Part shown: positions 2,562 through 59,901 of the stretch, piece by piece
Layout of the letters: each line of letters starts with the position of its first letter
Numbering within the stretch: the stretch's first letter is position 1
Assembly (NCBI GenBank): GCA_949296425.1
Contig: CASFPN010000015.1
Span: 1-64,000, forward strand
Direction: 5' to 3'
Source of the DNA: an uncultured bacterium
GTDB lineage: Bacteria; Cyanobacteriota; Vampirovibrionia; Gastranaerophilales; Gastranaerophilaceae
DNA length: 64,000 nt
Translations under genes and position numbers: made by a program
The notes under the pieces: generated by a model
What the model was told of the DNA's origin: nothing
The model's input: only the letters and a program-made list of their open reading frames with translations
Database searches by the model: none

Positions 2562-3366
2562 TTAGTATTTAATTTCCCAATTATCCTGCATAATTCGATA
2601 AACACAAGACATTCCGTTAGAGTTATTTTTTGAAGGGTCACAGGCATCAAGGTTAGTGCTGTACGGTTCAATTTTATTGTTTTTGATTTTAAAAGCAAAT
2701 ATATCATCTCCGAAAGTATTAGGTTTTTTATTCCCGTTTATATCTGTATAAATAAAAAGTTGAGCATTAGTAGTTCCGACAATATCAAAAAATATATTGG
2801 TTCCATCTGCAAGAGTTATGTAATATGAGTATTGATTTGGAGTATTTATATTTGTAGAATTTCCATTCTGGTAATAGTATGGAAAAGCCCAGCAACCTCT
2901 TTGATTTTTACAGTTTTGTGCTACTTTCAGGTAAGGAATTATTTTTTTTACGGTACTTTCTGTTGCTTGGAAATCATAATCAACTAATTTCCAGTTTTCT
3001 GTTGTACCATCTTCCACAAGCGTTTGTTGTATTGCTTGTGATAAAACAGAATAAACTTTTTTTAGCTTAACTGCGCGGTCTTTTTTTTGAGTTTTGGAAA
3101 TTATAGTTGGCAAAGTCATCGCAGCTACTATACCTATTATGCCTAGGGTGATTAGAACCTCGGCTAAAGTAAAGGCACAACGACGAATATTGTTTGAAGT
3201 GAATACGTACGTAACAGCTTTTGCCAGAGAGAATGTGCATTTGCGTTTAGGATGTGAAAGAGTTTGTTTCGTTGAAGCTTCATACTTTTCTATCTTTTTA
3301 TCTTGTGAAAAGCAAGCCCAGCCTACTTTTTCGGGGGGCAATTCTCAGCTTCTTACTCTTTTTCAT
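2562..3366 (-). CDS. Prepilin-like secreted protein behind an out-of-frame leader (C6 run)
   Basis: A ribosome-binding site (GGAG) and ATG at 3366 begin a 22-codon leader ORF (MKKSKKLRIAPRKSR...) that stops at 3298. It runs over a C6 tract at 3333-3338. The prepilin frame lies one base further along; in that frame a TGA precedes TTG 3341, the only own start before the pilin segment. Joining the frames needs loss of one base or gain of two, giving 267 residues for loss of one. The prepilin part has CAFTLAEVLITLGIIGIVAAM, a type IV prepilin-like hydrophobic N-terminus, then a globular domain with Cys in CDPSKNNSNGMSCVY at the end, seen in sibling proteins. Either a slippage-controlled gene, a gene started at TTG, or a decayed copy. 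Confidence 0.6.
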
Positions 3367-22872: not shown

Positions 22873-22901
22873 TTGCAGGATCCGGTATCCTGTGATATAA
22901 T
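22873..22901 (+). promoter_or_regulatory. Promoter of the first poly-G prepilin locus, with palindrome in the spacer
   Basis: TTGCAG (22873-22878), 17 bases, then TATAAT (22896-22901) preceded by TGA (extended -10). The spacer holds the near-palindrome AGGATCCGGTATCCT (22878-22892), possibly an operator. The RNA start near 22908 leaves a short leader with GGAAAGGA before the ATG at 22932. Confidence 0.7.
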
Positions 22902-22931
22902 AAAAACATAACGGAAAGGATATGAACTAGT

Positions 22932-23887
22932 ATGGAACTAAATATTAAAAATTGTAAACTCGGGGGGGGGGCACTGTAGGCTCCGCCGGAGGCAAAAAAG
23001 CTAAGAGGCATAGATGCGAAGCTAGTTTAGAAGTTAAGAAGATAAGAAGATATGAAGATAGGCTATTAACAGCAACTACCTCCTTCCTTCCCTTATTATG
23101 GAAGGATAAGAGGATTGGTAACAATCAATACCCACCCCAACCCTCCCGAATCAGGGAAAGAGTATCCTGTCATTGCGAGGGTGCTACGCACGTAGATCTG
23201 CCGGTCAGTCAACGCAAATACGCTTTTACCCTTGCAGAAGTTCTCATTACCCTTGGCATCATAGGTGTTATTGCGGCTATAACGATTCCTGTTTTGGTTG
23301 AAAGTTACCGTGAAAAAGCTCTGGAAACAGGCTTGGAAAGATTTTATTCCGTAATGAATCAGGCTTTTTATCATTCGAGACTTGATAACGGAGATGAAGA
23401 ATATTGGGAAGATTTTGGAGATAACTCTTGTGCGTATTTTAAAAAATACCTTTTACCATATTTAAAAAATATTGAATATGAATGCGGATATTATAATAAA
23501 GTTGCCGATTTGAAAAATCCTTCCAAAGTTGATGATGAGAGATTTGTAGGTATATATTTTGCATCCGGTGATATGGCTGTTTTTTCCTATGGCAAATATT
23601 TTACTTATACAAATAAGAAAAAGTATTATAAGGTTTATCCTGAATTTATGAGTAGTAGTCCAAATGATAGTTCGGATTTATACGGCAGTGAGCTATTCGT
23701 TTTTAAGATAGCTAAAAATTGTGCGTCTAATGCAAAAGTCGGTGGAATAGTTCCGCTTAATGATTCGTTTATGTATTCTGATAAACAGCTATTAGAAATT
23801 TGTAAACTTCATTCTCGTCAATGTTCTACAATCATTGTTCGCAACGGTTGGAAAATTCCGGATAATTATCCTTATAGGATAAAATAG
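22932..23887 (+). CDS. Prepilin-like secreted protein behind leader and G10 tract (locus 1, frame off)
   Basis: ATG 22932 follows GGAAAGGA, which is unusually far (about eight to ten bases). As written it gives MELNIKNCKLGGGAL and stops at TAG 22979. The prepilin frame is one base out: it is open from TAA at 22955, has no ATG, GTG or TTG before TTG 23294, and that TTG lies at the end of the pilin hydrophobic segment, so it cannot be the start. One added G (or two lost) joins both parts into 318 residues: leader, Gly run, 84 filler codons partly made of dispersed repeats, then RKYAFTLAEVLITLGIIGVI (23216-23275) with the Glu5-type prepilin helix, then a Cys-containing globular domain (LEICKLHSRQCSTIIVRNGW). 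Probably surface-exposed through a type IV pilus or pseudopilus route. Confidence 0.75.
22962..22971 (+). repeat. G10 homopolymer at the leader-prepilin junction (locus 1)
   Basis: Ten G in CTC-G10-CACTG, in codons 11-14 of the leader ORF. Such tracts are slippage-prone in replication and transcription. G11 or G8 would open the prepilin frame; G10 closes it. Confidence 0.9.
23181..23194 (+). repeat. Short dispersed repeat GTGCTACGCACGTA, copy 1
   Basis: The 14-base unit also occurs at 37268-37281 and 49205-49218. It contains the arms GTGC-TAC-GCAC. In locus 1 and locus 2 it is translated as GATHV just before the prepilin signal; the next about 30 bases are also similar between the two loci (CAGTCAACGCAAAT). 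Confidence 0.85.
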
Positions 23888-49033: not shown

Positions 49034-49884
49034 ATGTTGAATGTAAAGAAATGTGAACTCGGGGGGGGGGCACTCCTGAGCTAGGCAGAAGTCAAGAGGT
49101 CAAGAAGTCAAGCTATTTAAATCTCGTAAGATACTATGTCACTAAGGCACTAAGAAGTATCGTAAAAATTTTTCCTCTCTCGGGAGAGGAACTAAGGAAG
49201 AGGGGTGCTACGCACGTAGTCCTACCGACCAGTCAACGCAAATGCGCGTTTACATTGGCAGAAGTTCTCATCACCCTCGGCATCATCGGCGTGGTTGCAG
49301 CGATGACTCTGCCTGTTTTGATTACAAAGCATCGTGCTCAGGTTTTACAGACTCAATTTAAGAAGTGTTATTCCGAGGTCTCTCAGGCTCTTGCTCAGTT
49401 AAAAAAAGAGGATGAATATTTGTCGATTACTAACGGCCCTGAATTGCAGGATTTTTTGGTAAAACAGTTTAAGGAGGCTAAAGCTCCTGATCGTTTAATT
49501 TATTCGCAAACACCTGAAAAGCAGAAAGAATTAATCGGTTTTGAACTACCTGTTTATAAATCGTTCGACAAGAAAAATGAATTTTATAAACGAGCGCTTG
49601 ACGACGGGTTTATATTTATAAATAATGAATATTTTGTTTTTATTAATGCAGATTATTCTAGTATTTCGGATGCTGCAATAATAATTGATGTTAACGGACT
49701 TAATGGCCCTAATGTAGCCGGTTATGATTTATTTGCTTTTAAATTGGATGAAAATTTTAATTTGCGTTCTCAAGATAAAAATTCTCTTACCTGCACTGAA
49801 ACATTTCCAGGAGATCATAACGGTTTTTCCTGCAGTTATAATGCTATGACTGATAAAGATTATTTTAAAAATTTGGGCTGGTAA
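49034..49884 (+). CDS. Prepilin-like secreted protein behind leader and G10 tract (locus 2, frame off)
   Basis: AAGGAGG and ATG 49034 start MLNVKKCELGGGALLS, which stops at TAG 49084. The leader lies 14 bases after secA and has no promoter of its own that I can see. The prepilin frame is one base out; a TGA at 49054 closes it upstream and its first own start is TTG 49255 inside the pilin segment (FT|LAEV), so no independent start exists. One added G gives 283 residues: leader, Gly run, 59 filler codons, SQRKCAFTLAEVLITLGIIG, VVAAMTLP, then a domain with CTETFPGDHNGFSCSYNAM near the end, two Cys likely bonded as in the siblings. Prepilin peptidase would cut before the F of AFTLAEV; the long N-terminus is odd for a prepilin leader. 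Confidence 0.75.
49061..49070 (+). repeat. G10 homopolymer at the leader-prepilin junction (locus 2)
   Basis: Ten G in CTC-G10-CACTC, codons 10-13 of the leader. Same length, same surroundings and same register error as in loci 1 and 3. Confidence 0.9.
49205..49218 (+). repeat. Short dispersed repeat GTGCTACGCACGTA, copy 3
   Basis: Identical to copies at 23181 and 37268. Translated as part of GATHV in the prepilin frame, 10 codons before the AFTLAEV signal. Confidence 0.85.
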
Positions 49885-58828: not shown

Positions 58829-59901
58829 ATGGAAAAGATGTTAGAAAATCAGGTCTTCGGGGGGGGGGCACTCGCCGCTTAAGTTTCTTTCCCATCGCCT
58901 TTTGTGAGAGGGAGCAGTTGGGTGAACAAATTGAACTTACAACTGCTGGTGAGAGTCTTTTACAGGTCAAGAAGACAGTTTTTGTCATCCTGAACTTGTT
59001 TCAGGATCTAAAAAGGAGATTACGAAAATGTACTTCCCTCTCCCGGGAGAGGGTGGAGAAGGAAATATTCGCAAATCCCAAACTAACTCATCTACGTGAA
59101 AAACAGGCTGAGTTCACTCTTGTAAAAAAGTCAAAAGTATGTCATAATAGTGATATGATACATCTCAATAATAACTTCGATTTACGTTTCACTCCTCACC
59201 CTTCACTAAAGAAGAAAGCCGCGTTTACACTTGCTGAAGTCTTAATCACTCTCGGCATTATAGGTGTGGTTGCGGCCATGACTATTCCTGCAATAATATC
59301 AAAATATCAGCATAAAGCATTGGAATCTGCGTTTAAAAAGTCATATTCCAATCTAATGCAGGCAATGGTGTATGCAGAACCTGAATTAATATCTGATATT
59401 ACAGGCAGTGGAGTTGTTACTGGTGATTCTGAATTTTATAATAAGTTATGGGAAAGATATAAAATAATTGAAGATTTAACAGCACATAACAAATTTAATA
59501 TGGTGAATGTGTATTCTCAAGGAGTTAAAACTTATAATAAAAAGGCTGATGCAGATACTGCTTGTCCTCAGCTGCCTAATTTAGTTGTTTCTGACGGTTC
59601 ATCAGTCGGCGGAATGTTCAATTGTGCAGGAAACTGGGTGGTCATTGATACAAACGGTCCATATAAAAAACCTAATGCTGTGGGACATGATATTTTCTAT
59701 TTCGCGGTTGACTCAAAGACAAAACGTTTATTCCCTTTAGGTTCAAGTATAGTTTCAGGCTACTGGAATTTTAGCAATCAGGAGCAGTATTGTTCCATTG
59801 ATTCTTCTAATGCACGAAATGGTTATGCTTGTACAGCTTTTGCTCTTTCAAATAAATGTCCTGATGATGAATCAAAAACATATTGGGAATGTCTGCCATA
59901 A
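58829..59901 (+). CDS. Prepilin-like secreted protein behind leader and G10 tract (locus 3, frame off)
   Basis: AAAGGAG and ATG 58829 start MEKMLENQVFGGGALAA, stopping at TAA 58882. The prepilin frame is one base out. It could formally start at ATG 58756, but this has no Shine-Dalgarno site and lies before the predicted RNA start. One added G gives 357 residues: leader, Gly run, 118 filler codons that include FVILNLFQDLK (the well-known translation of the GTCATCCTGAAC palindrome) and two stretches of the TCCCTCTC...GAGAGGG kind, then LKKKAAFTLAEVLITLGIIG and VVAAMTIP, then a 200-residue domain with four Cys (TACPQLPN-, FNCAGNW, QYCSIDS, YACTAF and CPDDE-type sites). Probably exported through a type IV pilus/pseudopilus machine. 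Confidence 0.75.
58859..58868 (+). repeat. G10 homopolymer at the leader-prepilin junction (locus 3)
   Basis: Ten G in TTC-G10-CACTC, codons 11-14 of the leader; same register error as loci 1 and 2. Confidence 0.9.
58984..59008 (+). repeat. Palindromic dispersed repeat inside the locus 3 filler
   Basis: GTCATCCTGAAC then TTGTTTCAGGATC; ATCCTGAA and TTCAGGAT form the arms. The same family as 26014 and 33307, but here read in frame (VILNLFQDL) without stop. Confidence 0.8.

Follow-up and report, generated by a model that had tools for sequence, protein, structure and literature searches.

Prepilin-like genes encoded one base short at ten-base poly-G/poly-C tracts in a Gastranaerophilales genome, a candidate phase-variable family

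Most tract-bearing type IV prepilin-like genes of the Candidatus Gastranaerophilales genome analyzed here (G000; 2.0 Mb in 46 contigs), which belongs to a gut genus with kinship to cyanobacteria, are encoded one base short, with a leader and a prepilin frame that meet at a run of ten G or C residues and are joined only when one base is added. When the length-10 prepilin tracts of this genome and of related genomes were pooled, +1 was needed at 178 of 194, no shift at seven and +2 at nine. Poly-G phase variation, in which the pilins would be off at a set-point length and turned on by +1 slippage during replication, is the explanation that we favor with moderate confidence.

Organization of the prepilin loci

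Three such loci were found in the window, which is the whole stretch of 64,000 nucleotides that was analyzed (C15:1-64000), together with a fourth prepilin gene on the opposite strand (Table 1). The layout that the first-pass annotation had described for locus 1, in which ATG 22932 opens a short leader that runs into the G10 tract ahead of a prepilin frame with no start of its own, was recovered when the sequence was re-read. Ten codons of the leader (MELNIKNCKL-GGGAL) precede the tract. The prepilin frame, which has offset 2 within the run, continues without a stop to its end, and ATG, GTG and TTG are all absent from the stretch that separates the tract from the FTLAEVLITLG motif; the first stops in the other two frames of the filler are reached after 5 and 13 codons. 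Addition of one G fuses leader and prepilin into 318 codons, as had been claimed. The promoter proposed earlier is present as a match to the consensus, and the proposed Shine-Dalgarno sequence is likewise present but lies rather far from the start codon.

Table 1. Features of the prepilin loci in the window
Feature	Coordinates	Strand	Remarks
Promoter-like TTGCAG-17-TATAAT, locus 1	22873..22901	+	match to consensus alone
Shine-Dalgarno-like AAAGGA, locus 1	22915-22920	+	11 nt 5' of ATG 22932, rather far
Leader ORF, locus 1, MELNIKNCKLGGGAL	22932..22979	+	48 nt; stop TAG 22977-22979
G10 tract, locus 1	22962..22971	+	flanks CTC-G10-CACT; run length exactly 10
Filler, locus 1	22972..23224	+	mosaic of dispersed repeat modules; prepilin frame sole open one
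Mature type IV prepilin-like protein, locus 1 (FTLAEVLITLGIIGV...)	23225..23887	+	220 aa; PF07963, DUF6613
Leader ORF, locus 2 (MLNVKKCEL...)	49034..49084	+	AGGAGG upstream
G10 tract, locus 2	49061..49070	+	needs +1
Mature prepilin, locus 2	49249..49884	+	211 aa; N_methyl PF07963
Leader ORF, locus 3 (MEKMLENQVF...)	58829..58882	+	GGAG upstream
G10 tract, locus 3	58859..58868	+	needs +1
Mature prepilin, locus 3	59224..59901	+	225 aa
Fourth prepilin, ATG 3366	2562..3366	-	C6 relic of tract at 3338-3333, out of frame

Loci 2 and 3 share the layout of locus 1, and all three G10 tracts need +1. An upstream ATG at locus 3 (58756) shares the prepilin frame but lacks a Shine-Dalgarno site. At the fourth prepilin gene the leader is at offset 2 and the pilin at offset 0, and the leader belongs to the same family as those of the C10 loci. 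Over the whole window, ten overlapping G8 matches were observed compared with 0.22 expected.

The fillers of the three loci (22972-23224, 49071-49248 and 58869-59223) and of loci L004, L026, L027, L002, L003 and L025 are mosaics of modules common to several loci. Parts of the FTLA region (FTLVKGAAHAALPNKQRKC) are duplicated in them, and several contigs break off within filler. Exchange points between fillers fall at the tract, as L004 and L026 are alike upstream of it and L004 and L027 are alike downstream.

Frame rule and distribution of tract lengths

Leader starts were picked by start codon, Shine-Dalgarno match and distance, and the prepilin frame was not used. As in contingency genes, the homopolymer run lies within the coding region and its length sets the frame. 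Six of nine length-9 prepilin tracts needed +2 and five of eight pooled length-11 tracts needed no shift. Loci outside the own genome were mostly retrieved via G10 patterns, which biases how often pilins with G9 or G11 appear there; in the own genome all four G11 loci of the C-G-CACT type were in frame. In a highly contiguous related genome with 700 kb contigs (G007), 60 of 61 length-10 tracts needed +1. The rule was independent of sense (G10 or C10) and of codon phase, with leaders of 18 to 87 nt: offsets 0, 1 and 2 among the +1 loci numbered 98, 11 and 20 in the G sense and 17, 5 and 27 in the C sense, and no fixed slippery-codon phase was observed. Many loci are paralogues, so that the independent events are fewer than these counts, but they still include several leader families and both senses.

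Stops were absent from 8102 pilin-frame filler codons, compared with 610 and 671 in the other two frames; since broken-frame loci (seven of 225) had been set aside, this absence is partly a matter of selection, whereas the rarity of broken loci is not. Most tract loci have their own Shine-Dalgarno leader. Internal translation starts 3' of the tract were rejected as an explanation, since 89 of the 178 loci have no start codon between tract and motif, and a Shine-Dalgarno-backed start was found there at only seven.

About 98 good prepilin matches were found in the own genome. Among 87 distinct prepilins that were read, a tract is present in 55 and absent from 32, of which some are cut by contig ends, and about four of the roughly 55 tract-bearing prepilins are at G11. 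The exact sequence C-G10-CACT occurs 31 times, compared with 0 for the reversed control, and the wider pattern C-G6..-CACT occurs 37 times (31 G10, four G11, one G6AG3 and one G10CGG). With any flank, the genome contains 73 G10, five G9 and seven G11 runs. Across 15 genomes of the genus, sampled at one genome per species, the counts were 72 for G9, 652 for G10 and 70 for G11, so that G9 and G11 each make up about 10%. Genomes of other families in the order contain 0 to 3 G10 runs each, and in other genera of the same family such runs are mostly rare or absent, G053 being one of the exceptions. G10 runs are numerous in G053, G062 and G068, all from other genera of the family, often with different flanks. 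Viral contigs contained no copy of the two tract patterns that were searched.

According to the first-pass annotation, a single run length in all relatives would speak against switching; G9 and G11 were instead found beside G10 in related genomes. Matching loci with identical flanks also differ in length, with C10 in L075 and L097 and C11 in L077.

Non-pilin genes and sister species as controls

Of 13 non-pilin genes that contain a C-G10-C tract, 10 were in frame at ten, compared with 7 of 194 pilins (Fisher p 1.6e-10); the 13 genes are a hand-made set in which some assignments are uncertain. The in-frame genes include two family 2 glycosyltransferases, a starch-synthase-like gene and an FtsH-like gene. 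Family 2 glycosyltransferases are a common target of phase variation. Because non-pilin C-G10-C genes are mostly in frame at ten, a systematic miscount of G11 as G10 is unlikely. Two non-pilin genes also need +1, L243 in the own genome (C16:101948, a stretch of 313 aa) and L257 in G004, which encodes an OmpA-domain protein.

Two sister species of the same genus (G013 and G022) lack the C-G-CACT tract and their prepilins have short in-frame leaders; three prepilin genes of G022 have a long filler yet an in-frame start. Misassignment of leaders was rejected on these grounds, as tract-less prepilins start in frame, some of them with long filler.

Prepilin products and selection

PF07963 scored above the cut-off at all three window loci. 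In the AlphaFold2 model of the mature part of locus 1 (pLDDT 83, pTM 0.78), a helix at residues 3-55 is followed by a small sheet, and thus an N-terminal methylation/cleavage motif followed by a hydrophobic helix was found. A Foldseek comparison of the locus 1 model against the PDB gave no solved relative and no match with E below 0.7; the prepilin label is a prediction from the N-terminal motif and not from a fold match. Predicted leaders ahead of the prepilin peptidase site range from about 20 to more than 200 residues.

The median dN/dS of mature pilins encoded one base short was 0.20 (34 independent pairs, both members of which require +1), with values as low as 0.07 in cross-species pairs with near-saturated synonymous sites; tract-less pilins gave 0.19, from only four pairs. 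Purifying selection thus acts on the pilins of these one-base-short genes, which implies that the proteins are produced and of use for at least part of the time. Seven of 163 mature parts are shorter than 150 aa.

Strand polarity of the runs

In the own genome all G10 runs were on one strand in each of the 17 contigs with at least two runs (61 runs; chance 2^-44), for example eight on the plus strand of C43 and five on the minus strand of C44. Along the long contigs of G007 the strand of the runs switches at only a few points, and the polarity seems to hold in G053. Genes point either way, those along the run having G10 in their mRNA and those against it C10. The run strand is probably the leading strand and has a slightly positive GC skew, but skew was rejected as the whole cause of the polarity because it is merely +0.01 to +0.08. 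The runs follow the orientation of replication and not of transcription, which speaks for the DNA level.

The restriction to one strand per replichore recalls chromosome-orienting motifs such as KOPS. On the G strand, C is found on both sides of the run in 172 of the 178 tracts, including that at 22961-22972 of the window, which is 35% G+C, and codon needs give no explanation for these C flanks.

Proposed switching and alternative explanations

What the genome sequences establish is the layout of the genes, the +1 rule, how tract lengths are distributed, the non-pilin genes in frame at ten, purifying selection on the product and strand polarity. We infer in addition that tract length changes frequently within populations, that this change controls pilin output and that the leader is cleaved. 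Locus 1 would then belong to a set of about 50 prepilin contingency genes in each genome, in which a short leader equipped with its own ribosome-binding site is followed by a C-G10-C tract and a prepilin frame. A gene would be off at ten and on at eleven, replication slippage would add or remove tract bases, and a cell lineage would express just the few pilins with a tract at eleven. Translation would pass through leader and filler, and prepilin peptidase would cut the long N-terminal extension before FTLAE.

A switch at the DNA level is favored because the tract is in frame in glycosyltransferase and other genes, because lengths differ between matching loci and because orientation follows replication; phase variation is also favored by the type of tract, the kinds of genes that carry it and the precedent of Bifidobacterium breve pili. 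Of the two options offered by the first-pass annotation, slipped-strand on/off switching thus gained from the new evidence, and a fixed share of in-frame product from slippage by polymerase or ribosome is kept alive by the uniform +1 offset, which that annotation had not foreseen.

Some observations argue against switching. G9 runs are as frequent as G11 runs, and a random off-state would therefore leave many genes one base long and not short, but +1 is needed at 178 loci and +2 at only 9. Replication slippage alone leaves this bias toward +1 and away from -1 unexplained. As a possible reason, longer runs may mutate faster, so that changes between 10 and 11 would be quicker than those between 10 and 9 and expression would come in brief episodes. 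More than 90% of tract loci are off in the consensus genotype, though the identifiable related assemblies are metagenome bins and thus represent in-host cells. Purifying selection is also equal in G10-coded and tract-less pilins (0.20 compared with 0.19).

Alternatively, RNA polymerase might add one base at G10 or C10 in some transcripts, by which the pilins would be made constantly at a reduced level while their genes stay fixed at one base short. Such programmed transcriptional slippage, which we consider rather unlikely, explains directly the +1 offset at 178 of 194 length-10 loci in both senses and all codon phases, and agrees with the sharp peak at exactly ten across species. Ten bases is the length of the RNA:DNA hybrid. 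The combination that it predicts, a constant offset conserved across species together with a conserved product, was found, as cross-species pairs with near-saturated synonymous sites retain length 10 and +1 with dN/dS down to 0.07. Polymerase slippage at homopolymers usually yields insertions, but transcript insertions in E. coli and Buchnera occurred only at A/T runs and not at G/C runs (PMC5574713). Furthermore, C-G10-C is in frame in ordinary genes, where slippage would do harm, the orientation of the runs tracks replication, and poly-G and poly-C transcripts would need to behave alike. We consider it rather unlikely that a whole pilin family of at least 50 genes per genome is encoded one base short and expressed via programmed +1 polymerase slippage. 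To our knowledge, no recoding of this kind is known for a G/C run in bacteria. The uniform +1 offset would let replication slippage and recoding be told apart.

It is improbable that the copies are dead genes or silent recombination cassettes that are not expressed in situ; filler mosaics common to several loci and exchange points at the tract would be consistent with this, but the frames are intact (only 7 of 163 mature parts below 150 aa), dN/dS is 0.20 and most loci have their own Shine-Dalgarno leader. Slightly less probable still is programmed -1 ribosomal frameshifting on the GGG GGG or CCC CCC codons in the run. A -1 shift equals one added base and every run has two homopolymeric codons, but the runs are ten bases long in all three phases, whereas the minimum for slippage would vary with phase; different tRNAs would have to act alike on C-runs and on G-runs; and the sequences 3' of the run differ between tract families, with nothing in common. 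Frameshifting was rejected as the main answer because run length is independent of codon phase. The least credible alternative is a sequencing or assembly error that hides true G11 runs in genes that are simply in frame: G-runs are difficult to sequence and reference lengths can deviate from the population majority (PMC9187656), but this was rejected via the non-pilin C-G10-C genes that are in frame at ten in the same genomes (10/13 compared with 7/194), G11 calls occur at loci that require no shift, and independently assembled genomes agree, one of them with 700 kb contigs.

Comparison with known systems

Our literature search found no description of such a tract system in Gastranaerophilales. 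The nearest likeness to the phase variation favored here is in B. breve, in which the sortase-dependent pilus genes bbr_0113 and bbr_1889 have G10/G11 tracts, are off in the reference genotype and are turned on by replication slippage (PMC9187656). Both cases involve a gut commensal and a G10/G11 tract in a pilus gene (in B. breve the first) whose deposited genotype is off and whose frame is opened by an indel. In the Gram-positive B. breve, however, two loci for sortase pili are turned on by losing one G, whereas here about 50 dispersed loci encode type IV prepilin-like proteins and would be turned on by gaining one base, in the G or C sense.

Campylobacter jejuni NCTC11168 has 28-29 poly-G/poly-C contingency loci (PMC4965091). 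In both cases poly-G/poly-C tracts within genes, of G8-G12, determine whether expression is on or off. The C. jejuni genome is also AT-rich, like the present one. The C. jejuni genes differ in whether they are mostly on or mostly off and in their on-lengths, whereas here a single family shares one length, flank and offset. Programmed transcriptional slippage, described for bacterial IS elements (PMC1088944) and for potyviruses, where one base is added (PMC4552492), similarly uses a homopolymer offset for expression, but the bacterial cases described use A/T runs and not G/C runs.

A 2 Mb genome has as many as about 126 G/C tracts, all of one length, and most of those examined belong to prepilin genes that are off by default. 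If true, this would give an uncultured gut lineage a contingency repertoire of very large size. A small random subset of about 50 pilins could then be displayed by each cell, with relevance to adhesion, escape from phages and recognition by the immune system. Automated gene prediction will truncate these genes or misplace their starts, so that public genomes probably contain mis-annotated members of the family.

Larger proteins with an N-terminus of the YTLSEIIIVML type make up a second family that has G10/G11 tracts near the start (L239, L240, L241 and L246; L204 and L231 in G007), and in two of its members in the own genome the CA flank is lost and the frame differs.
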